Position numbers and translations under genes: made by a program. From NCBI GenBank assembly GCA_003223255.1, contig QHYJ01000176.1, forward strand, positions 1-35,009: a stretch of 35,009 nt of DNA, in the 5' to 3' direction. The stretch is from Acidobacteriota bacterium (GTDB taxonomy: Bacteria > Acidobacteriota > Terriglobia > Acidiferrales > UBA7541). Shown one piece after another: positions 1,824-13,940 of the stretch (its first letter is position 1; every line of letters begins with the position of its first letter). The notes beneath the pieces were generated by a model. That model ran no database searches, was not told where the DNA came from, and was given only the letters and a program-made list of their open reading frames with translations.

Positions 1824-2510
1824 TCAAAGAGCTTGCGAATCGTCGTCGTGATGGCGGGAGATGGCCCCGCCCACTGACTCCGAAGCCTCGCCCTGTGCCG
1901 CTTCCCCAGCTTCCTGAGGACCGTAGCCATACGAATACGGGTAATAGCGATACGAGTAGTAATAATCGGGCGCACTGGAATCCACCGCATTGAGAACCAC
2001 ACCCAGGACGCGAGACTTCACGCTGGCGAGCAGATCGCGCGTTCGCATGAAGGCCACCTTGGGAGTTTCACCGCTGCGCACCACCAGCAGCACGCCGTCG
2101 GCGTGCACGGAAAGAATCACGGCATCGGTCGCCGCCATGATCGGCGGAGAATCGACGACGATGAACTTGAATTTCGCTCGTAGCTCAACGATGGCGTCAG
2201 CGAGCTTGTGTGAGGAGAGCAGGTCCGCGGGATTCGGCGGGAGCGGTCCAGTGGGAATGGCGACCAGGTTGGGAATCGCGGGATGGGGCACAGAGACGAG
2301 ATCCAGACTGGATACGCCCGCGAGATAGGAGCTCAAGCCCGCATACTTACCGGTGCCGAGATTGAGAAGCCGGCCGATTCCCGGCTTGCGAAGGTCGGCG
2401 TCGACGAGCACCGTGCTGTCGCCGAGCTGCGCCAGAGTCACGGCCAGATTCGCGGCTGCCGTGGTCTTCCCTTCCCGCGGCAGGGCGCTCGTGACCAGAA
2501 TGACTTGCAG
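1824..2510 (-). CDS. Bacterial tyrosine kinase domain, C-terminal part of a frame-broken Wzc-like protein
   Basis: This frame carries the BY-kinase half of a Wzc/EpsB-type co-polymerase. It contains Walker A (SALPREGKTT), Walker A' (VLVDADLRKPG) and Walker B (FIVVDSPP), and ends in a tyrosine cluster (DYYYSYRYYPYSYGYG), the expected autophosphorylation tail. Homology starts abruptly at about 2510, where the preceding 539 residues stop matching in another frame. The earliest in-frame conventional start is GTG at 2441, which would cut off Walker A, so this piece would be catalytically dead if translated alone. If the lesion is an assembly error, the joined protein would be near 777 residues, normal for the family. 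It lies just upstream of the epimerase. Confidence 0.85.
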   Translation of the reverse strand: MQVILVTSALPREGKTTAAANLAVTLAQLGDSTVLVDADLRKPGIGRLLNLGTGKYAGLSSYLAGVSSLDLVSVPHPAIPNLVAIPTGPLPPNPADLLSSHKLADAIVELRAKFKFIVVDSPPIMAATDAVILSVHADGVLLVVRSGETPKVAFMRTRDLLASVKSRVLGVVLNAVDSSAPDYYYSYRYYPYSYGYGPQEAGEAAQGEASESVGGAISRHHDDDSQAL

Positions 2511-4125
2511 AGGTGCGCAAGGCCCGGAAGGCTTCCGACATCTGTGACTTGGGCAGATGCTGAGCTACCAATTCGATGCGCTTCTCATGACCGTTGGCGG
2601 AGAAGGCCGGGAGCATGCCGCGGCGCCTGTGGCCATTAGCACCGACAAATTGTGGAACGACCGCGAGAGACGGCAAGCGCGCGAGAGTTTCAATATCATC
2701 CGGTGTCTTCACGGTGTTGTCCAGATACTCGCGCAGCAGCGCCAGCCCGATACCGCCAACCAAGCCGACCAAGAAGGACAAAATGATGTTTTTTGTTTTC
2801 GCGGGGCGAGCCGGTGTTGTCGGGACCATGGCAGGGTCGACGATGCGAATGTTGGAGGAATGCAGCGCGCCGGAAATCGCAGTTTCCTTCATTTTGGTCA
2901 TCAGCCCTTCGTAGAGCGCTTTATTGGCTTCCGCTTCACGCTTGAGAATGTTGTATTCGACCATTTTCTCGGCCATTTGGTTGGTTTCGGCCTTGGCCTG
3001 GTCGAGAGCCTCGCTCATCAAGGTCTCGCGCTGACGGGCTTCACGGTAGTCGCTTTCAAGAACATCGAGGATTTTCTGCTTTTCTTTCTCGACGTTGTCG
3101 TCAATGTCTTTCAATTGGGCCTTGAGGCGCACCACCTTCGGAAAATTCGGGCCATACTGAGCGAGAGCATCGGCGTAGTCCGCCGAGGTTTCGCCGCGCT
3201 TCTTGAGCAAGTCCGTGAGCGCGGTGTTGCTCTCGACCTGGGGCACGGCATCCAGGTTTCCCGCTTTGGCGAATTCGTAGAGCGATTCTTTTCTCATGCG
3301 CTCGGCCTGGGCGTCGGTGAACTGCTTGTTGATGTCGCTCAGGCGTTGCGTGGTCATGTTCTGCTTGTCGTCGAGCGTCCATATCTGGTTTTGGCGCTCG
3401 TAGGCGATGCGCGCGTCTTCCGACTTCTGCACTTTGATTTTGAAATCCTTGAGCTGGTCGGCCAACCAGTCGGAAGCCTGAGAGGTGGATTCATACTTGC
3501 TTCGGTAATTCTGTTCCACATAGGTGGCGATGTGCGCGTTGACCGTGCTCGCGGCAAGCTGCGGGTTCGTGGATTCGAAACTCACATCCAGCAAACGGCT
3601 GTTGGGAACACGCTTCACACTGAGACTGCTCAGAAATGCGGCGAGTTCGGGCGGGCGAACCTGGTTCGCGAGATTGCCGCTGGCGACGGCTTCAGAAAGG
3701 AAGCCGGAGGCGGGGGAATCGGGACGCAAGGCCAGACCGTTGTTCCGGATGGTCTGGAGCGCGAGGGTCTCGCTGGTCAAGATTTTTGACTGCGTCTCAA
3801 TGTAATTGTCCGAATCCACCATGTAGTCGTAAGAGTCCGCGCCTTGAAAGGGAAGGATATTGGCGTTCTCCCGGTCGATTTCAATGCGCGCGGTGGCCAC
3901 GTAAACAGGCTGCATGCGGAAGGTGGCGATGCTCACGATGGTCACCACAGAGAGCATGAAGGAAAGGATCAGCCACTGATGCTTCCGGAGGATCAGCAAA
4001 TAATCGTAAAGGTGCGGTTCTCTAGGCGAGAGATCAAACGAGGCAAAGCGGTTGGAGATGGGGAGTAACTCGACCTGACCTTTGGAGCCTGATTCGTGGG
4101 AAACGAGTTTGTTGTCGTCTGTCAT
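2347..4125 (-). CDS. Wzc-like polysaccharide co-polymerase, N-terminal part (frame-broken)
   Basis: An inner-membrane chain-length regulator that couples polymerisation to export. Residues 1-539 look authentic: a Wzz domain with a first membrane helix near 51-69, a long periplasmic coiled-coil-rich region, a second membrane helix at 446-465, then the linker into the kinase ending SEAFRALRTS at 530-539. Beyond residue 539 the frame runs into arginine- and glutamine-rich nonsense to a stop at 2347, while the kinase continues in another frame from 2510. About ten residues normally found between RTS and the kinase strand QVILVTS are also missing, so the lesion is a deletion of roughly 30 bases (3m-1), not a single-base slip. 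The start is ATG at 4125, two bases after the OPX stop, implying translational coupling. Confidence 0.85.
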   Translation of the reverse strand: MTDDNKLVSHESGSKGQVELLPISNRFASFDLSPREPHLYDYLLILRKHQWLILSFMLSVVTIVSIATFRMQPVYVATARIEIDRENANILPFQGADSYDYMVDSDNYIETQSKILTSETLALQTIRNNGLALRPDSPASGFLSEAVASGNLANQVRPPELAAFLSSLSVKRVPNSRLLDVSFESTNPQLAASTVNAHIATYVEQNYRSKYESTSQASDWLADQLKDFKIKVQKSEDARIAYERQNQIWTLDDKQNMTTQRLSDINKQFTDAQAERMRKESLYEFAKAGNLDAVPQVESNTALTDLLKKRGETSADYADALAQYGPNFPKVVRLKAQLKDIDDNVEKEKQKILDVLESDYREARQRETLMSEALDQAKAETNQMAEKMVEYNILKREAEANKALYEGLMTKMKETAISGALHSSNIRIVDPAMVPTTPARPAKTKNIILSFLVGLVGGIGLALLREYLDNTVKTPDDIETLARLPSLAVVPQFVGANGHRRRGMLPAFSANGHEKRIELVAQHLPKSQMSEAFRALRTSASHSGHERPAAGREDHGSRESGRDSGAARRQHGARRRRPSQAGNRPASQSRHR

Positions 4126-4127
4126 TT

Positions 4128-5369
4128 CTAGCGATATGCCAGCCGATAGAGAGCCACGCCGGATCCCAGCGCGAGCCCAAATTCCATGGCGCGGAACAGC
4201 GCCTGCTTGGAGCCGCTTTCCGGAACGTATAAAATGTCGCTCGGTTGAAGCCGCAAGTCTTCCGCTTTGCGATTAAGCACCTTCTTCAAATCGATGGGGA
4301 CTTCATGCTGTTGCCCAAGATTGTCCTTGCGCACGATGACCGCTTTGTCGGACTTCGCCGTGCGGGTCAGACCGCCTGCCAGGGACAAGATCTTCAGAGT
4401 CGTCAGTTGCGTGCGATCATTGGAAAGAACGTAGCCTCCGGCGCGACTCACCGCGCCCAAGACGTAGACAACGCCAGCATGGGGAACCGTAACGACGTCT
4501 CCGGCTTGGAGGGGGATGTTGTTGTTGGTGTCGCCTGTTTCCATCAGGTCGGTCAAATTGATGGTGATGGTATTCGTGAGAGGAGGTGGCTCAGCGCTCG
4601 CGGAAGGTCTCGCCGGCGTTGTGGCCGCTCCGGACGCAGGAGTCGAAGACGCGACGTCTTTCTGGCCGACTTGCGGATTGGAGGAAGTACTGGCTGCAGA
4701 AGAAGAAGCCACAGCGTCAGAAGAACGCGTCTCATCAGCAGGGAGAGCCTTGGCGGGAAGGGGTTGCTCGGGACCGATTTCGGGAGGCTCGCCCGCGTCG
4801 GAAAGTGTCTCCTGGGACGGACGCGAGACAATGATGGTGTCACCTGCATCATTGGAGATTCCGCCAGCTTCCGCGAGAACTTCCAGGAGCGTCACGGGCC
4901 GGTCGGCTTCGTACACCATGGGGTGAAGAACAGCGCCAACAATTGTGATGGGCTTGCTCTTGTGTTCCTTGACGCTGACGCTGACATCCGCGTGCGTGAC
5001 CAGGCCGTTGGCTTCCAGCATCTCCGCGATCTTCTGCTCTGTCTGCATTTCCGTCAGGCCCGCGACGTGCAACCGCACGGGAACCAAAGGGATGCCGATC
5101 GTGCCGGTCTGGCTGACGCGCACCTCGCGGCTCAGCTCTTCTACATCAAAAACGTAAATGCTTAAGAGGTCTCCGGGGCCGATCACGTAGTCGTGGGGCA
5201 TCATCCGCAAAGAAGCGGAGAGTTCCCGAAGGCGGTCATTCACTTGTTGCGGCGTTTCGACAACCGGCTGCGCGCGGACGGCTTGCGCACGGCAAGCCGG
5301 GGAAAGAGGGAGCAGTGCGAGCACGGCTGCAGCACACACCACCCCCCCACCCAGTCTAGCTGGCCGCAT
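4128..5369 (-). CDS. Polysaccharide export outer-membrane protein (Wza/OPX type, SLBB domains)
   Basis: A 413-residue secreted exporter subunit forming the outer-membrane or periplasmic channel that works with the Wzc-like protein. It has an N-terminal signal peptide (hydrophobic run VVCAAAVLALLPL ending near CRAQA). A Poly_export domain follows, beginning HDYVIGPGDLLSIYVFDVEEL, with SLBB-type segments (ITIVGAVLHPMVYEADRPVTL and VVYVLGAVSRAGGYVL). The two SLBB regions are separated by about 80 Ser/Ala/Pro-rich residues, longer than usual. A hydrophobic stretch near the C-terminus (FGLALGSGVALYRLAY) could anchor it. ATG 5369 is preferred over GTG 5390 because GGAGG lies upstream of it and the predicted promoter would initiate between the two. 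It sits between the polymerase and co-polymerase genes. Confidence 0.92.
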   Translation of the reverse strand: MRPARLGGGVVCAAAVLALLPLSPACRAQAVRAQPVVETPQQVNDRLRELSASLRMMPHDYVIGPGDLLSIYVFDVEELSREVRVSQTGTIGIPLVPVRLHVAGLTEMQTEQKIAEMLEANGLVTHADVSVSVKEHKSKPITIVGAVLHPMVYEADRPVTLLEVLAEAGGISNDAGDTIIVSRPSQETLSDAGEPPEIGPEQPLPAKALPADETRSSDAVASSSAASTSSNPQVGQKDVASSTPASGAATTPARPSASAEPPPLTNTITINLTDLMETGDTNNNIPLQAGDVVTVPHAGVVYVLGAVSRAGGYVLSNDRTQLTTLKILSLAGGLTRTAKSDKAVIVRKDNLGQQHEVPIDLKKVLNRKAEDLRLQPSDILYVPESGSKQALFRAMEFGLALGSGVALYRLAYR

Positions 5370-5391
5370 GAGAATAGACGACCTCCGCACG

Positions 5392-5418
5392 ATTATACAG
5401 CGATACGGATAAAGTCAA
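5392..5418 (-). promoter_or_regulatory. Candidate sigma-70 promoter inside the EPS operon
   Basis: On the minus strand, TTGACT (5418-5413) and TATAAT (5397-5392) are separated by 15 bases. Both boxes are near consensus but the spacer is short, so strength is doubtful. The site sits exactly in the 49-base gap between the polymerase stop and the OPX start and could drive the export genes separately. Confidence 0.4.
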
Positions 5419-6684
5419 TTAGGGATTTCGAGAACTGCGATGGTGCCGTTGCGTTGGGGACGCAGAAGGAGGTTGTTGAATTTCGGCCGTTGCCAGGTGC
5501 GCCATAAAGAGAAAAAGCCAGAGATTAGCAGGGATGTGGAAGTTGAAGTCGACCAGCGCATGCACGAGCAATCCAGCACAAGCCACGATTCCAGAAAGTT
5601 GCAGGGCTCCCACAAAGGAAAAGTCATTCTGGCGGAAGCGCGAGAAGGATTTGAGCAGCAAAGCCGCGAGAAACCAGGCACAACAGGAACCGCCCAGGAC
5701 GCCTGTTTCGGCAAGGGCCTCCAGGTAGTCGTTGTGGGAGTGATTGACGATTTTAGCGTCATAGAGAGTTTCGTAGGGCGGATACACGATTTGCAGCGTG
5801 CCGAGTCCCGTGCCTGCCAGCGGATGGTCCAGGAAAATGTGCCAGGAGCCTCGGCGCATGGCGGCGCGCTTGCCTTCAGTCACTTCCAGAGACTGGAACG
5901 AGGAGAAGCGCTGCAGAATCTGGCCAACGCCGAGCCATGTAACCATCAGCAGCGCCGCGAGCAAAACCGCGGCCACGCCCAAGAGATGCTTTCCCAAGCC
6001 GCGGCGACGAAGAAGCAGATAGGTGAGAAGCGCAAGTTGCACACAAAAGCTCACGATGCCGCCGCGAGAAGCCGAGAGGAAGAGCGCGGCGATAGGCATG
6101 ACCGCGAAGAGCGCCACGATGGCGAGGCGTTCGCGGCGGACTCTGCCGAGCACCAGAGGAACCAGCGCCAAGGGCAGGACCAACTCCATCAGTCCCGCGA
6201 AGTGGTTGCGATTCACGTAAGGACCGAACGGTATGCCTCCGTAGCGCAGTTCACGGAACCAATAGAGTTTCCCGTTGAAGGTCAGATGCTGCAGAATGCC
6301 GAACACGCTGACCACAAAACCGAGTCCCATGCCAAACCACACGAAGCTGCGCCAATCGTGAAGCGTTCGAAACGCCTGCACGCATAGAAACAGAAGAATC
6401 AGGCTAGCCAGCAACAACGACAGCTCGATGCGCGTGTTGTAGGGAGAAGCACTCGCGCGAAAGAACCACTGTCCCAGACCGACAAGAAAAAAAGCCGCAA
6501 GCGGCGGGAGCAGCGGCGAGAGAACCGGCTGCTCTTTTTCGTGGAAATAAAAGCGCAGGGCCCAGATCGAAAAGAGAAAGGCGGCGCCTGTTTCCAGGAC
6601 GGCGCGCGCCCAATCTTCCACGCCCCCATGGGCGGCCACAGCAAAGCTGATCAGGACGCAGAGGCCCAGGCGCAAAAACTTCAT
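5419..6684 (-). CDS. O-antigen ligase/Wzy-type polysaccharide polymerase
   Basis: A 421-residue multi-spanning inner-membrane protein with about ten hydrophobic helices, of the Wzy_C/WaaL superfamily. It would polymerise repeat units on undecaprenyl pyrophosphate or ligate chains. Family signatures are visible: NRNHFAG at 158-164, SASRGG at 204-209 in the central core, and the periplasmic-loop motif HSHNDYLE at 315-322. The hydrophilic C-terminal tail is short. Its ATG overlaps the stop of the upstream TPR gene by four bases (ATGA), so translation is coupled. In this operon, next to Wza/Wzc homologues, a polymerase role is more likely than a lipid-A ligase role; sequence alone cannot separate them. 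Confidence 0.9.
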   Translation of the reverse strand: MKFLRLGLCVLISFAVAAHGGVEDWARAVLETGAAFLFSIWALRFYFHEKEQPVLSPLLPPLAAFFLVGLGQWFFRASASPYNTRIELSLLLASLILLFLCVQAFRTLHDWRSFVWFGMGLGFVVSVFGILQHLTFNGKLYWFRELRYGGIPFGPYVNRNHFAGLMELVLPLALVPLVLGRVRRERLAIVALFAVMPIAALFLSASRGGIVSFCVQLALLTYLLLRRRGLGKHLLGVAAVLLAALLMVTWLGVGQILQRFSSFQSLEVTEGKRAAMRRGSWHIFLDHPLAGTGLGTLQIVYPPYETLYDAKIVNHSHNDYLEALAETGVLGGSCCAWFLAALLLKSFSRFRQNDFSFVGALQLSGIVACAGLLVHALVDFNFHIPANLWLFLFMAHLATAEIQQPPSASPTQRHHRSSRNP

Positions 6685-7991
6685 GGCTTGGGAGGCTCCG
6701 ATGCGGCAGGGGTTTGCGTGACCGGAACCAGGGCGACGTCATCTACCCAAGTCATCCCCTGAATCTTGTCATCGACTTCTCGGCTGGGCAAACGCTCCAG
6801 GCAAACTTGCATTTGCTGAACATTTTTTCCGGAAGACCAGGGAATCTCGACGCGGCTCCAGGGTTGGGTGCCGCGAAAATCGCTTGTATCAACCGGCGAA
6901 GCGTCCGGGGTTCCCAGCGGGCGCAATTGGAAGCGGATGCCCTGTTCCGTGGTTATGGATTGAGTCCGCACCCAGGCGGAGAAGTCGTAGTCCGTGGAAG
7001 GTTCCACCGGAACCTCCACACACGGACCGAGGAGATGGAGATTGTATCGGCCATTGAACAGCAGGCGCAGCGATTGCTTACCCGAGTGCTTTTCGCGGGT
7101 ATCCAAGCTAAATTGGGCGCCCTGGGCTCCCGCGGGCAGCGCCCAGGCAAAACCACTTCCAAAGATACCGGCTTCGAAACCCCCATCCCAAAGTACAGAA
7201 CCGGCGGGCTCAGGAAGGTTGCCCAGGCCGGCAAAATCCACGGCTTGCTCCCAAACGCGCTGGGCTTCCGCGACTTGTCTTTCTCTTAGGAGAGCGCTGA
7301 CCAAAGAAAAAGAGTAGTTTCCCAGGCGCAGCTTGGGACGAAGAGCGGCGAGGCGGTTCCAGACCTGAAAGGCATTCATTGTATGGCCCTCGCTGATCTG
7401 TTCGGCAATTGCGCTTACATAGGCGTCACTCAACGGTGGAAGGACGCGGTCAAGAACGAGGTTAGTGTTGGGCTCGGCGCTTAGAGCCCGAGAAAGCGCT
7501 TCGGCGCCACGCTTCGGTTCGGTCTCCACGGCATGGCGCATCTCGAGGAAGGCGTTGTTGGTTTCACCTTCCCGGAGGAGAAAGTTGCCGTAGCGCCAGG
7601 AAATCTCGGCGGAAAGAGGATAGGCTTTTTTGGCGTGAAGAAACGCATCGCGCGCTGCTGTGGTGTTGCCTTCGGCTTCGTACGCGGCGCCCAGATCGGC
7701 CCAGATGTCCGCGGAACGAGGATTGAGTGACAGCGCGACGAGATAGGCCTGGACAGCGCGGGCGGTATCCGTGTCTTCCAGGTTGTATTGCCAATAGCGG
7801 CCCAACAGGTACCAATTCTCAAAGTTCTTTGGCTCCAGCCGGGTGGCGCGCTCGTAACCCTGGAGAGTCTGAAGGCCGGCATAATGAGCGGCGAGCGCGT
7901 TGCGAATGCTGAAATAAGAAAGAAGCAGCACGCAAACAAGAGCAACGGCGGGGACGACAGCACGACGCGAGGAACTGGAAGGCTGGCTCAT
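6681..7991 (-). CDS. Membrane-anchored TPR protein with C-terminal carbohydrate-binding-like domain
   Basis: A 436-residue protein beginning with a signal-anchor helix (AVVPAVALVCVLLLSYFSI, residues 11-29). Tetratricopeptide-type repeats follow (YERATRLEPKNFENWYLLGRYW, the next two repeats through about residue 150). From about residue 255 a beta-rich domain starts WDGGFEAGIFGSGFAW, with an SLRLLFNG strand and a closing WVDDVALVP. That pattern is typical of carbohydrate-binding-module-like or discoidin-like folds in acidobacterial proteins. It is the first gene of the EPS operon and faces the RiPP cluster across a 278-base divergent region. A scaffold or glycan-sensing role in the exopolysaccharide machine is inferred. 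ATG 7991 has no obvious Shine-Dalgarno. Confidence 0.85.
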   Translation of the reverse strand: MSQPSSSSRRAVVPAVALVCVLLLSYFSIRNALAAHYAGLQTLQGYERATRLEPKNFENWYLLGRYWQYNLEDTDTARAVQAYLVALSLNPRSADIWADLGAAYEAEGNTTAARDAFLHAKKAYPLSAEISWRYGNFLLREGETNNAFLEMRHAVETEPKRGAEALSRALSAEPNTNLVLDRVLPPLSDAYVSAIAEQISEGHTMNAFQVWNRLAALRPKLRLGNYSFSLVSALLRERQVAEAQRVWEQAVDFAGLGNLPEPAGSVLWDGGFEAGIFGSGFAWALPAGAQGAQFSLDTREKHSGKQSLRLLFNGRYNLHLLGPCVEVPVEPSTDYDFSAWVRTQSITTEQGIRFQLRPLGTPDASPVDTSDFRGTQPWSRVEIPWSSGKNVQQMQVCLERLPSREVDDKIQGMTWVDDVALVPVTQTPAASEPPKP

Positions 7992-8269: not shown

Positions 8270-10099
8270 TTGAGTGGTTTCATTTGCATCCTCCATTGGG
8301 ACAACGCGCCGATTGACCGGGCGCTGCTCGAATCCCTGACCGATTTTCTGTCTTTTCGAGGTCCAGACGCGTGCGAAGTTTGCCTCGATGGCTCCATCGG
8401 CATGGGTCATGCTCTGCTGCGAACGACGCACGAGTCGAAAAACGAGCGGCAGCCGGCGAGTCTCGAAGAACGCTACCGGATTGTCGCGGATGCCCGGCTG
8501 GACGCTCGGGAGGAACTCATCGATGAGCTGCAGCGGACTGGGCGTAACGTTTGCCCAGACATGCCGGACGGCGATTTGCTTTTGCATGCCTATGCGGCTT
8601 GGGGCGCATCGTGCGTCGATCACTTGCTTGGGGATTTTTCTTTCGCGCTCTGGGACGCCCGCTGTAAACAACTTTTCTGCGCCAGGGATCATTTTGGTGT
8701 CAAGCCCTTCTACTATGCGAGCATCGGCGCGCTTGTTGTCCTGAGTAACACGCTGAATTGCATCCGGCACCATCCAGCCGTCTCGGCACAGCTGAACGAC
8801 CTCGCGATTGCTGATTTTCTGCTATTCGACACGATCCGGGAGTCGGGAGCTACGTCTTTCCGCGACATCCAGAGGCTGCCACCCGCGCACATTCTTGCGT
8901 GCGAGCAAGGAAGAATTTCCGTTCGCCGCTACTGGACGCTGCCAGTGAGCGACCCGATTCATCACAAGCGGCCGGGCGAATGCCTTGACGAATTCCGGGA
9001 ATTAATGGATCGCGCTGTCGCAGACCGCATGAGAATGGACAGTGTGGCGGTGTTGATGAGCGGAGGGCTCGATTCTCCCACCGTGGCGGCGATCGCCAAG
9101 CGGGCACTAAATGGCAATAAGACCCCTGCCGGATTGCGCGCCTATACGGAAGTGTTTGAAAGGCTGATTCCGCACGAAGAACGCCGGTATGCCGAACTCG
9201 TTGTGGGGGCGCTGAAAATCCCGATTGAATTTCAAGTGAGTGATGAGATCGGGTTGTGGAAGGATGCAGATCAGCACGGGAATGGTTGGCCCGAGCCCAT
9301 ACATTCGCCGTTCTCCGATGGTGGGCTGAGCCAGTTACGCCAAGTTGCAGCCGGAAACTGTGTAGCTTTGACCGGATTTGGAGGCGACCCCGCACTTTCG
9401 TGTCAGCTTTCCGTCCATTTTTCCCTGTTGCTTAAGAACAGGCAGATTCGTCGAGCGCTGAGCGATGTGGTGCGATACTTCGCTGCGGAAGGCAGGTTCT
9501 CGCGGTTGTACCTTCGCACGCGCTGGCAGATATGGTTTGGAGACAAGAGTCAAACTCCGCAGTATCCCGTATGGCTGAACCAGGACTTGGAAAAGCCCCT
9601 GGGTTTGCGCGAGCGTTGGGAAACGTTTATGCGCAGTCCGGCCCGCCCCGGAGCCTCACGCGCAACAGCCCAGGAGGCAGTGGCCGATCCCTTTTGGCCA
9701 AACCTGTTTGAGGGTTACGATCCCGGTGTGACAAGCATCCCCGTGGAAGTTCGCCATCCCTTTTTTGACCTTCGGCTTGTAACCTTCTTGCTGGCTTTGC
9801 CAGCGCTGCCCTGGTGCTCCGACAAGGAGCTGCTGAGAGAGGCTGCTCGCGGCGTCCTGCCGGACGCGGTGCGGCTGCGGCGGAAGTCACCGCTCCCGGC
9901 CGACCCTTTGATTGCGCTTCTCGAGCGGCCCGAATCAAAGTGGGTGGATTCTTTTGAAGCCGTCCCGGAGCTCGGTCGTTACGTGGAGCGGAAACGCATC
10001 CCGAAAGTGTTTGGGGAAAAAGATGCTTGGACAGCGTGGATTCATTTGCGTCCGCTCAGTCTGAACTTTTGGTTGCGGTCGAGGGCGGCAGCGGGATAG
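8270..10099 (+). CDS. Asparagine-synthetase-like lasso-peptide macrocyclase (C protein)
   Basis: A 609-residue AsnB homologue. In lasso peptide pathways this enzyme adenylates an Asp/Glu side chain and closes the macrolactam ring. The N-terminal class II glutaminase-like domain (about 1-200) starts MSGFICILHW, so the Cys2 nucleophile of true asparagine synthetases is Ser. A functional ammonia-producing site is therefore absent, as in many lasso cyclases. The synthetase domain keeps the PP-loop SGGLDS at 264-269 and GFGGD at 369-373. The latter replaces the GEGGDE of ordinary AsnB, again cyclase-like. The start is TTG at 8270, with AGGGG nine bases upstream. The precursor peptide gene starts 19 bases after its stop, which makes the lasso-type assignment strong. 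Ordinary asparagine synthesis is unlikely. Confidence 0.88.
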   Translation: MSGFICILHWDNAPIDRALLESLTDFLSFRGPDACEVCLDGSIGMGHALLRTTHESKNERQPASLEERYRIVADARLDAREELIDELQRTGRNVCPDMPDGDLLLHAYAAWGASCVDHLLGDFSFALWDARCKQLFCARDHFGVKPFYYASIGALVVLSNTLNCIRHHPAVSAQLNDLAIADFLLFDTIRESGATSFRDIQRLPPAHILACEQGRISVRRYWTLPVSDPIHHKRPGECLDEFRELMDRAVADRMRMDSVAVLMSGGLDSPTVAAIAKRALNGNKTPAGLRAYTEVFERLIPHEERRYAELVVGALKIPIEFQVSDEIGLWKDADQHGNGWPEPIHSPFSDGGLSQLRQVAAGNCVALTGFGGDPALSCQLSVHFSLLLKNRQIRRALSDVVRYFAAEGRFSRLYLRTRWQIWFGDKSQTPQYPVWLNQDLEKPLGLRERWETFMRSPARPGASRATAQEAVADPFWPNLFEGYDPGVTSIPVEVRHPFFDLRLVTFLLALPALPWCSDKELLREAARGVLPDAVRLRRKSPLPADPLIALLERPESKWVDSFEAVPELGRYVERKRIPKVFGEKDAWTAWIHLRPLSLNFWLRSRAAAG

Positions 10100-10118
10100 A
10101 CTTCCTTGGAGGCGCCGA

Positions 10119-10268
10119 GTGACGTCGAATTCGCGGGAAGGTAGCAAGAAAAAGCCATACCAGAAACCTAACCTCCGCGTCTACGGAGACATCCGAACGA
10201 TGACCCAGACCGTCCCGAGAGGGAGCGGAAAGGCAGACGCCACAAAGGGCTCCAATAAAACTCACTGA
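10119..10268 (+). CDS. Lasso-type RiPP precursor peptide (49 aa, GTG start)
   Basis: A small gene missed by length filters. GTG at 10119 has GGAGG at 10108-10112, six bases upstream. The peptide contains the canonical lasso leader signature Y14-x2-P17-x-L19-x3-G23-x5-T29 (KPYQKPNLRVYGDIRTMTQ), recognised by the B1/RRE component and marking the leader end by the penultimate Thr. With canonical cleavage the core is TVPRGSGKADATKGSNKTH (residues 31-49): strongly basic, Gly-rich, without aromatic or aliphatic plugs. The only acidic residue in it is D40, at core position 10, outside the known 7-9 ring range. The gene lies between the cyclase (19-base gap) and the kinase (21-base gap). Leader identification is firm; core boundary and topology are open. 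Confidence 0.88.
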   Translation: MTSNSREGSKKKPYQKPNLRVYGDIRTMTQTVPRGSGKADATKGSNKTH

Positions 10269-10289: not shown

Positions 10290-11300
10290 TTGTCAGTATC
10301 GCATACTGTCTATGGGCTGCGAGTTGCAGCCAACATAGCTATCCCCGGCATCTCCCCACGGCTTGATTCAAACGCGTATGATGTACGAGTGCGGCTAAGA
10401 AAGTGGCCTAAATTCCCCTCGACATTTCTTGAGTCCATTGAGGTTTTCCATACGAGTTCAAACGTGATGGCCGGCGGCCAGCCAAACCTGCGCGTCGGTC
10501 TGTTCCCCGGCGGAGAGCATTTTGGCTTCTTTTATGGGGATGGAGCGCGATTCATCGTCGACCGCCGCGGATGCGAAGTGTGGGCTGATTGGCCGGAAGA
10601 TTATTCGCTCGAAGACGCTTGCACCTATTTGCTCGGGCCGGTGATGGGATTTGTGTTGCGCCTCCGCAGAACGGTTTGCCTCCATGCGAGTGCCGTGGCC
10701 ATAAATGATCGCGCTATTACGCTGGTGGGCCCTCCGGGTGCTGGCAAATCAACCGCCGCGGCAGCCTTTGCGCGCGCAGGGTTCCCGGTCCTTTCTGACG
10801 ACGTCGTTGCGCTTGTTGACCATGGAACCGAGTTTCTTGTGCCTCCGGGTTATCCCAGGGTGAACTTGTGGCCGGATTCAGTTCGGAGATTATTTGGATC
10901 CGAAAATGCTCTGCCGCGCATCGCGCCCACGTGGGACAAGCGTTACTTGGCACTTGGCCAGAACGGCCACGGTTTCGCTTCCAGCCCGTTACCGCTCGGG
11001 GCCATCTATACCCTGGACAGTCGCAACGCAGCCGTTAGCAGTCCTGTCTTGGACGAAATTTCCGGTGAAGAGGCATTCATGGCGCTCGTGGCCAACACGT
11101 ATGTGAACTATCTTCTTGACCAGGAGATGCTGCGCACAGAGTTTGATGTGCTTGGCCGCTTGGTCTCGAGCATCCCTATTCGTCGAGTGCGGCCTTCCGC
11201 CGAATCCTCGGCCACCTTCAACCTTTGCGGGTCCATTGCTGCTGACGTCAAGCGAGTGATGACACGCGCTGCTGCCACTGCAGCTGCAGTACGCGGATAA
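10290..11300 (+). CDS. HPr-kinase-like RiPP peptide kinase
   Basis: A 336-residue protein whose C-terminal half resembles the HPr kinase/phosphorylase catalytic domain. It has HASAV with H132, the P-loop GPPGAGKST at 147-155, and the metal-binding or general-base acidic pair SDDVV at D170-D171. The N-terminal 120 residues are divergent and may bind substrate. Homologues in lasso clusters (PadeK, ThcoK) phosphorylate the C-terminal residue or side chain of the precursor. The core here ends SNKTH and has several Ser/Thr candidates. The start is TTG at 10290, with GAGGA at 10281-10285. It follows the precursor by 21 bases and precedes the methyltransferase by 7, one transcription unit. The role as a tailoring kinase is inferred from family plus context. 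Confidence 0.85.
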   Translation: MSVSHTVYGLRVAANIAIPGISPRLDSNAYDVRVRLRKWPKFPSTFLESIEVFHTSSNVMAGGQPNLRVGLFPGGEHFGFFYGDGARFIVDRRGCEVWADWPEDYSLEDACTYLLGPVMGFVLRLRRTVCLHASAVAINDRAITLVGPPGAGKSTAAAAFARAGFPVLSDDVVALVDHGTEFLVPPGYPRVNLWPDSVRRLFGSENALPRIAPTWDKRYLALGQNGHGFASSPLPLGAIYTLDSRNAAVSSPVLDEISGEEAFMALVANTYVNYLLDQEMLRTEFDVLGRLVSSIPIRRVRPSAESSATFNLCGSIAADVKRVMTRAAATAAAVRG

Positions 11301-11307
11301 ACCCCCC

Positions 11308-12456
11308 ATGTACAGCCTGGGTGCCTATGGCTCGATGATAGCGGATCGCGTTCGCGTCGACGCTTATAAGGAAGCTCTACGAAAGACCGTTCGGAAGGGA
11401 TCCGTTGTCGCGGAAATTGGCACGGGACCGGGTGTCTTCGCGGTGCTGGCATGCCAGCTCGGGGCCGAACGAGTCTTTGCCATCGAGCCGGCTGAGATTA
11501 TTCAAGTGGCGCGCGAGGTTGCTGCCGCCAATGGCTGCGCTGGCAGAATCGAGTTTTTCGAGGGGCTTTCTAGCGGGGTGACCCTTCCCGCTCGGGCCGA
11601 CGTCATCCTCTCCGATCTCAGGGGCATCCTCCCGCTTTTCGAGCGCCACATCCCCGCTATCGCGGACGCACGGCGCCGCTTTCTTGCCCCCGGCGGGACC
11701 ATTGTTCCACGAAGGGACACCCTTTGGGCTGCGATCGTGGAAGCTCCAAGACCCTACGGCGAAGTCGTGGATCCTTGGGACCTGAATCCTTTCGGTCAAA
11801 ACCTGAGTCCAGTGCGGCAGCTCGCGGTGAACAATGTGCAAAAAGTGCGTGTAAGTCCTGCCCAGCTTTTGACTGGGCATAAACTCTGGGCCACGCTGGA
11901 TTATGCCAGCATTCAAAACCCTGATGTTCGGGGGAATTTGGAGTGGACAGTGGACCGCACCGGAACCGGCCACGGAATCGTCGTGTGGTTCAATGCGGAT
12001 CTCGCGGAAAACATAGGCTTCTCCAATGCTCCCGGTGCACCCGAGACCATCTACGGATCTTTCTTCTTCCCCTGGACGCAACCTATGCCTTTAAGACAGG
12101 GGCAAACCGTGTGTGTCGACCTCGCGGCGAAGTTGGTCGAAAATGACTACCTCTGGCGATGGACCACGCGCATCAAGCCGCTCTTGGGATCAAGCACTTC
12201 TCCTGTCCATTTTGACCAATCGCAGTTTGCCGGAGCGGTCTTGTCCGCCGCGCAGCTTCACAGAATCGCCGCGGATTATATTCCCCGGCTATCGGACGAG
12301 GGAGTCCTGCGCCGCAGAACTTTCGAGTTGATGGACGGGAGAGCTTCGCTCGAAGAAATCGCGCACAAGCTCGTGGCCGAATTTCCCCATCGATTCTCGA
12401 GCTGGCAACAAGCTTTGTCGTACGCCGGTTTGCTCTCGCAAGAATTCAGCCGCTAA
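11308..12456 (+). CDS. PRMT-like SAM methyltransferase with C-terminal PqqD-like (RRE) tail
   Basis: A 382-residue class I methyltransferase in the protein arginine methyltransferase fold. It has SAM motif I (VAEIGTGPG, 34-42), the acidic end of strand 2 (FAIEP), motif DVILSDLRG where classical PRMTs have the double-Glu hairpin, GGTIVPRRDTLW, and a beta-barrel-like middle part. The PRMT Glu loop is not conserved, so arginine may not be the target. Residues about 322-380 (LSDEGVLRRRTFELMDG, then LEEIAHKLVAEF and a final GLLSQE) look like the winged-helix part of PqqD, the leader-binding RRE or B1 module. The fusion would bring the methyltransferase to the leader. It is the last gene of the operon; no strong Shine-Dalgarno before ATG 11308, so coupling to the kinase is likely. 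Confidence 0.8.
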   Translation: MYSLGAYGSMIADRVRVDAYKEALRKTVRKGSVVAEIGTGPGVFAVLACQLGAERVFAIEPAEIIQVAREVAAANGCAGRIEFFEGLSSGVTLPARADVILSDLRGILPLFERHIPAIADARRRFLAPGGTIVPRRDTLWAAIVEAPRPYGEVVDPWDLNPFGQNLSPVRQLAVNNVQKVRVSPAQLLTGHKLWATLDYASIQNPDVRGNLEWTVDRTGTGHGIVVWFNADLAENIGFSNAPGAPETIYGSFFFPWTQPMPLRQGQTVCVDLAAKLVENDYLWRWTTRIKPLLGSSTSPVHFDQSQFAGAVLSAAQLHRIAADYIPRLSDEGVLRRRTFELMDGRASLEEIAHKLVAEFPHRFSSWQQALSYAGLLSQEFSR

Positions 12457-12520: not shown

Positions 12521-13702
12521 TCAGTCTTTGCCGGCGCGACTATATTTTCGTGCCAAGCGGAAGGGCCGGCGCAAGGCGTCGAGTACAGGATTGCTGCTCA
12601 TCATCTTGCCATCGGCCTGCCAGTCCTCTTCCGTGGGTGAAAAAGAAAGTCTTAGCAGATACGCCGGAGCCGCGAGAAAGTTGCCGCGCATGCGCAGGCG
12701 AAACGCCGCGCGTTCGAATAGACCGAGGTGAGCGTACCCCGGGGCAGGCAGCCAGTGAAGCACGCGCGCCGCAAGCTTTGCGGCCACGGCGTCTTCCCGC
12801 ACGCGCGCAGCAATCGGTTCTGGAAGTTCGGCATGGAGAACATCCATAGCCAGCCGCAAGCCGGTGTGTAGTAGATGCTCGGCCTGCACGGCGTTTGCGG
12901 ACAAGCCAGCGCGCTCCCAACCGATGCCCGGTTGCCGCGCCATCAAGCCCGCGACGTCCGCGATCGAGCCGAGTCTCTTCCAGAAATGCTTCGCGCCATG
13001 AACGCAAATAAGCACGAGATGATCCTCGAGTGAAGGTGCGGGCACTTCATGCCCATCGACGCGCACGCGAATCCGCCGGGCGATGAAATCTTCGATGGGA
13101 ACGGGACGGGGAAAATAACGCAGCGTCAAGTTATTGTGAAGCTCGACGAGCAATTTCGAATCAGGCTTGCAGAAAAGATATTGCCCCGGAATTTTGCCTG
13201 CCCGAATGGCGTCGAGAGAAACCGTTGCTTGGTAGCCAGAACCAATCAGCAACCCCGTAGCGCGCCGGATGTCCCGCTGCCGTACGAGCAGGTCGAGATC
13301 GCCGTAGCTTCGCATTGCTGGGTCGGCGTAAGCCTCGACAGCTAGGACTGGTCCCTTGATGACCAATGCTGAAATTTCATTTCGGTTGAAAAGTTCCAGC
13401 AGACGAAAGAGCTCTCCCGTCAAGCGAAGCGTGAGGAAATTCTGCTCGCGCTGTCGTTCGAGTAGCGCCTGTTGGATTTCGGGAGGCATGGCGGCGTCGC
13501 AATCGTTCAGGCAAGCCGCGAGCTGTCCAACCAGGCCATGCTTGTCAGCGAGCATGAGCAAGCGAGGCCAGTCCACGGTGGGAAAATATTGCCGCAGCCG
13601 TTCTTTGTCGCTCCAAGGAGAAACGCATTCTCGCAGCGCGGTCCATTCGCGCTCGAACGCGCGGTTGTCGGAGATCCGCTCCGCTGAAAGCAGTTCAGCC
13701 AT
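12521..13702 (-). CDS. Nucleotidyltransferase family protein (NTP_transf_5 type, RiPP-associated)
   Basis: A 393-residue cytoplasmic protein with the nucleotidyltransferase signature of this family: IKGPVLAVEAYADPAMRSYGDLDLLV, with the GDLDLLV metal-binding aspartates and the upstream Lys. A helical region follows, containing HGAKHFWKRLGSIADVAGLM. Members are frequent beside lasso clusters carrying a kinase (PadeN in the paeninodin cluster), though their function there is not established. It is convergent with the methyltransferase (64-base gap), so it is not in the same transcript. ATG 13702 is chosen because AGGGA lies just upstream. Assignment to the RiPP system rests on family co-occurrence. 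Confidence 0.85.
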   Translation of the reverse strand: MAELLSAERISDNRAFEREWTALRECVSPWSDKERLRQYFPTVDWPRLLMLADKHGLVGQLAACLNDCDAAMPPEIQQALLERQREQNFLTLRLTGELFRLLELFNRNEISALVIKGPVLAVEAYADPAMRSYGDLDLLVRQRDIRRATGLLIGSGYQATVSLDAIRAGKIPGQYLFCKPDSKLLVELHNNLTLRYFPRPVPIEDFIARRIRVRVDGHEVPAPSLEDHLVLICVHGAKHFWKRLGSIADVAGLMARQPGIGWERAGLSANAVQAEHLLHTGLRLAMDVLHAELPEPIAARVREDAVAAKLAARVLHWLPAPGYAHLGLFERAAFRLRMRGNFLAAPAYLLRLSFSPTEEDWQADGKMMSSNPVLDALRRPFRLARKYSRAGKD

Positions 13703-13940
13703 GGTGATCCCTGAGCTTATCAATGAATCGGTTTGCTCTCACGAATCGAATCGTGGCTTAGGGTGGTTTTCTGGAGAGCTTACAAATCAAAACGACGGGG
13801 CCATCCAACCTCAGGAGTCAAACCTGGGCAAGTTACTTTCTCCTCGCAATGAGCCCACACGATAAGCCAGCTCGCGGCTTCGACGGCGCCGTTTGGAACT
13901 TCTCCCCATTTTTGTTTGTCAGGGTCCGGAAACCGTGGAG

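Follow-up and report, generated by a model that had tools for sequence, protein, structure and literature searches.

A GTG-initiated precursor gene of a probable kinase-type lasso pathway in an Acidobacteriota genome, with aspartate at predicted core position 10 and an unlinked B1-B2 pair

A short gene between the cyclase and kinase genes

A short gene encoding a putative lasso-type precursor peptide (precursor A) is located on the forward strand at positions 10119..10268 of the window, by which we mean the whole 35,009-nt stretch of DNA that was analyzed and that comes from an uncultured Acidobacteriota lineage. It is flanked by two larger genes in the same orientation, encoding a lasso macrolactam synthetase-like C protein (the cyclase; 8270..10099) and an HprK-related kinase, which is the proposed peptide kinase (10290..11300). 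The kinase gene is followed on the same strand by a gene for a methyltransferase with the fold of protein arginine methyltransferases (PRMT) and altered catalytic motifs (11308..12456). The reverse strand carries a nucleotidyltransferase gene of the NTP_transf_5 family (PF14907, E 2.9e-50; 12521..13723), which is often found beside such clusters, and, in divergent orientation to the lasso operon, a group of exopolysaccharide genes encoding Wzz/GNVR, Poly_export/SLBB, Wzy_C and a TPR protein (2347..7991).

The precursor ORF starts with GTG at 10119 and ends with the stop codon TGA at 10266-10268. Its translation, (M)TSNSREGSKKKPYQKPNLRVYGDIRTMTQTVPRGSGKADATKGSNKTH, comprises 49 amino acids, of which residues 1-30 form the leader and residues 31-49 the predicted core. 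A Shine-Dalgarno sequence, GGAGG (10108..10112, forward strand), is separated from the start codon by a 6-nt spacer (10113-10118). This ribosome-binding site is identical in the related loci L035, L036 and L037 and reads GGGGG in L038, and the start of the precursor, GTGACGTC, is identical across the four closest relatives. Within the leader, the residues Y14-x2-P17-x-L19-x3-G23-x5-T29 are an exact fit to the lasso pattern YxxPxLxxxGxxxxxT. A sequence-only reading of this DNA had proposed a lasso precursor on the basis of the GTG start, the 49-residue length, the GGAGG six bases upstream, the exact leader pattern and the location between cyclase and kinase genes. All of these features hold in the sequence and its translation, and the assignment as a lasso precursor is supported by the leader motif, conservation, codon evidence and the families of the neighboring enzymes.

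In its nucleotide form, the leader motif occurs once in 35 kb when both strands are considered, compared with 0.05 occurrences expected from dinucleotide shuffles. The leader matched the NCBIfam model NF033528 (lasso_cyano) with an E-value of 8e-6 and 25.7 bits, which is under the curated cut-off of 33, and it was the top match to this model genome-wide. For comparison we used 38 loci from related genomes encoding the cyclase (37-75% identity). An equivalent precursor ORF with the strict motif was found downstream of the cyclase in 36 of these 38 loci and also at further loci, with the codon of the motif Tyr positioned 60-90 nt past the cyclase match in most of the 36. The kinase gene comes after the precursor in nearly all relatives. 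The sequence-only reading would have been refuted by a lack of conservation in relatives retaining cyclase and kinase; this check was made, and the peptide is conserved there.

Comparison of the close pair L037 and L038 revealed 13 synonymous and a single non-synonymous change in the region from KKPYQ to the end of the precursor. Between the precursor in the window and that of L035, dN/dS was 0.21 for the leader and 0.56 for the core, which is the pattern expected for a recognized leader combined with a freer core. A chance ORF inside the cyclase-kinase gap could likewise be short and start with GTG, but this explanation is hardly conceivable in view of the rarity of the motif in the window, the retention of the precursor across dozens of loci and the strong excess of synonymous changes. 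The codon pattern clearly points to a real, coding gene under codon-level purifying selection.

Enzymes and other neighbors

The cyclase-like protein consists of a GATase and an Asn_synthase domain. Ser2 replaces the glutaminase Cys, and the SGGLDS loop is intact; in the form SGGxDS, this loop is invariant in the cyclases compared. The best match of the protein was NF033535 with 351 bits, under the cut-off of 525.

The kinase shows the His, GxxGxGKS and DD motifs (H...GPPGAGKS...SDD) and matched TIGR04352 with an E-value of 2.5e-13, under the cut-off. Every one of the 49 cores compared has a Thr within its last five residues, and 36 of 42 tabulated precursors have [KRH]-T near the end of the core. 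As Thr is the most conserved core hydroxyl, we propose it as the phosphosite: the conserved near-C-terminal Thr of the K/R-T motif, T48 in the window precursor, is the likely target judged from this pattern.

The predicted structure of the methyltransferase (mean pLDDT 75) has a PRMT fold with the oligomerisation domain and a three-helix region at the C-terminus, and its best match among solved structures was PRMT6 (4c08, Foldseek E 4e-23). The double-E and THW loops are absent; across the lasso-linked relatives, SDLRGxLPLF stands in place of SEWMGYxLxxE and IYG in place of THW. Due to these altered catalytic loops, arginine methylation was not assumed, and the reading as an arginine methyltransferase was rejected on the motifs; the L035 core is also free of Arg. 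An RRE-like domain at the C-terminus of the enzyme was considered and rejected too, the only indication being a PqqD match under the threshold in the relative L077 (E 0.017). We found nothing on point about lasso clusters with a PRMT in the accessible literature, an absence that is weak evidence.

As for the nucleotidyltransferase, an enzyme of this kind is needed in the pseudomycoidin pathway to add a hexose to the phosphate (PMC9266682). The exopolysaccharide neighborhood is kept in many relatives, divergent in the genus of the window and co-directional in others. Since the Wzy gene was also found in genus genomes without a cyclase, the link to the lasso genes may be mere neighborhood, and the exopolysaccharide genes were rejected as functional partners. 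Judged from its length of 37,184 bp and its identical precursor, a contig with the label 'Betaproteobacteria bacterium' (L079/L167) appears to be the same as contig G006:C58 of the window's genus; the filing is a probable taxonomic mislabel.

An unlinked B1-B2 pair

Neither a B1 (RRE) nor a B2 (leader peptidase) gene was found in the 35-kb window. A PF13471 search of the window's genome led to two places, on contigs C317 and C62. The latter (G000:C62) carries, about 53.9 kb in, a B1-B2 pair (PqqD E 9e-16), whose B2 scored 73.5 bits against NF033537 (lasso_biosyn_B2), over the cut-off of 33. B1 and B2 are available in the genome as one unlinked pair. On C317 (L073, G000:C317; 1-756), a second B2-like gene lies at the contig end, next to where another asparagine-synthetase-like gene begins, and would belong to an additional lasso- or RiPP-like system of this genome.

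Elsewhere in the family, most genera carry B1-B2 directly upstream of the cyclase gene. In the genus of the window, the C62-type pair has a PDZ-protein gene on one side and, on the other, a TPR gene with queC and queE behind it. The window's genome shares this gene order with 12 further genomes, as far as the contigs reach. No genus genome has more than one copy of the C62-type B2, whether linked or unlinked. Among the 25 genus genomes with a cyclase, B2 is linked to the cyclase in 10, and the orphan pair is present in 13 of the 15 with an unlinked cyclase. Altogether, B2 was detected in 23/25 genomes with and in 3/11 without a cyclase (Fisher p 2e-4, the counts being related genomes). The pairs without a cyclase of this clade are those of G018 and G023 and a truncated copy in G025.

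The two cyclase-bearing genomes without B2 both have decayed clusters. In G017 (L053), the precursor leader is corrupted, with no B2 in the genome and no kinase on the contig; in G030 (L166), the cyclase is in two pieces and no precursor was found. The pathway seems to have been lost as a unit in these genomes. At L056, one of two cyclases precedes a corrupted leader and the other set is intact; this cyclase and that of L053 account for the two of the 38 loci that have no equivalent precursor ORF. From synteny and co-occurrence among related, fragmented genomes (428 contigs in the case of the window's genome), we infer that the C62 B1-B2 pair serves the precursor in the window.

Predicted core, ring size and proposed pathway

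The acidic residue at predicted core position 10, the lack of B1 and B2 in the window and the PRMT-fold methyltransferase after the kinase gene all go beyond the sequence-only reading. The core was assigned using the register rule of Y at -17 and T at -2, for which cleavage of BsfA is experimental (PMC10368454). With Y14 and T29 in these positions, the predicted core is TVPRGSGKADATKGSNKTH (10209..10265, forward strand). It ends in N-K-T-H, has no aromatic plug residue in the tail, and contains D at position 10 as its sole acidic residue. According to the published rule, the ring-closing acidic residue is found at 7-9 (PMC8498205; PMC10368454), a range that the window core reaches, as D9, only with a one-residue cleavage shift. 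The first acidic residue of the 42 tabulated precursors is at position 9 in 26, at 10 in 8, at 8 in 6 and at 11 in 2, and further D10 cores are present at L056, L157, L162, L163 and L183. The occurrence of D at position 10 or beyond (D≥10) changes about ten times on the cyclase tree, so that the predicted D10/D11 spacing is recurrent across it.

If cleavage were shifted by one residue, V32 would be the first core residue and the product a lasso peptide with an ordinary nine-residue Val1-Asp9 ring, free of any novelty in ring size and with the commonest spacing of the family. We regard this as possible but rather doubtful. The leader is ungapped, and each of the 42 tabulated precursors has T at -2, as does the YxxPxL leader of the window precursor; the very similar sister cyclases of L036 and L038 meet D9 and D10 cores behind leaders that are equal in register. 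Furthermore, L039 (D11) would require a shift of two residues. In all 13 of the D10/D11 cores compared, the first residue is T, S or A, whereas the second is varied (V, I, K, L, Q and T among others); the cleavage register therefore seems to be kept, and a mere displacement of the cut by one residue is disfavored. With the fusilassin/fuscanodin enzymes, a lasso ring of ten residues was produced in vitro (PMC8498205), and this is the only one that we found in the accessible literature, where the absence of others is weak evidence. That macrolactam is of the same size but belongs to an artificial analogue, whereas the spacing in the window would be natural and recurrent.

Taken together, we consider it quite likely that the ORF at 10119-10268 encodes the precursor of a lasso-type peptide that is phosphorylated, probably methylated, and matured in part by trans-acting proteins. 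In the proposed pathway, the stand-alone RRE protein B1 would bind the YxxPxL leader, the HprK-like kinase would phosphorylate the precursor, most likely at T48, and the PRMT-fold enzyme would methylate it. The transglutaminase-like B2 would then cut after Q30, placing the start of the core two residues beyond T29, and the cyclase would close the ring between the N-terminal Thr1 freed by this cut and the Asp10 side chain. The unlinked C62 gene pair would supply B1 and B2 in trans. An enzyme-modified product that is not a lasso, namely an unthreaded macrolactam or a linear phosphorylated and methylated peptide, appears unlikely. Threading cannot be read from a sequence, the core has neither a disulfide nor an aromatic plug, and the tails in the window's closest group are short (7-9 residues after D10/D9). 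However, an intact cyclase has been conserved, Lys/Arg close to the tail end could serve as plugs, and precursor, cyclase and B2 decay together.

Among known systems, it is closest to the kinase-type lasso pathways (paeninodin, pseudomycoidin, Bradymonas BsfA; PMC9266682, PMC10368454), and we class it as a variant of these. It shares with them the YxxPxL leader, separate B1/B2 proteins, an asparagine-synthetase-like cyclase, an HprK-like kinase and a nucleotidyltransferase nearby. What is new is the recurrence of the predicted D10 spacing, the separate location of the B1-B2 pair and the addition of a PRMT-fold methyltransferase. It also differs from these pathways in the candidate phosphosite, a near-C-terminal Thr instead of a C-terminal Ser or Ser3, and in that no ABC transporter was recognized beside the lasso operon of the window. 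The precursors of NF033528 and NF033521 (lasso_leader_L3) have a similar leader, with the window's match below the curated cut-off, but differ in the core and the C-terminus. A methyltransferase in the lasso operon is common to the lassomycin/StspM type and the PIMT type (cellulonodin-2, lihuanodin; PMC9266682), but the enzyme in the window has a protein arginine methyltransferase fold. Lasso mining presumes a 7-9-residue ring and B1/B2 beside the cyclase; the family of the window would score low on both, and its precursors are short enough for gene callers to miss. The family offers natural test cases for the ring-size stretch of lasso cyclases, for trans-acting leader peptidases and for the use of a PRMT-fold enzyme in modifying a peptide natural product.

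In a wider sense, these precursors may represent a natural lasso-type group in which rings of ten or even eleven residues evolved repeatedly, for the most part in clusters with a PRMT-fold methyltransferase, and whose maturation in the genus depends on an unlinked B1-B2 pair that is inherited vertically and works in trans. We put this forward tentatively, as something quite possible though short of probable. In raw counts, the PRMT-like gene was associated with D≥10 (13/20 against 2/37, Fisher p 2e-6), but the association lost significance when independent pairs on the cyclase tree were compared (median p 0.5), and the link between D10 and the PRMT-fold methyltransferase is therefore suggestive only. 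As a separate observation, L155 (4891-5300) contains two precursors in tandem; their cores are AVDMMGMADGGGGMMNKT and AVDMNGMADGGGGGMNKT, and a PRMT-like gene belongs to the same cluster.
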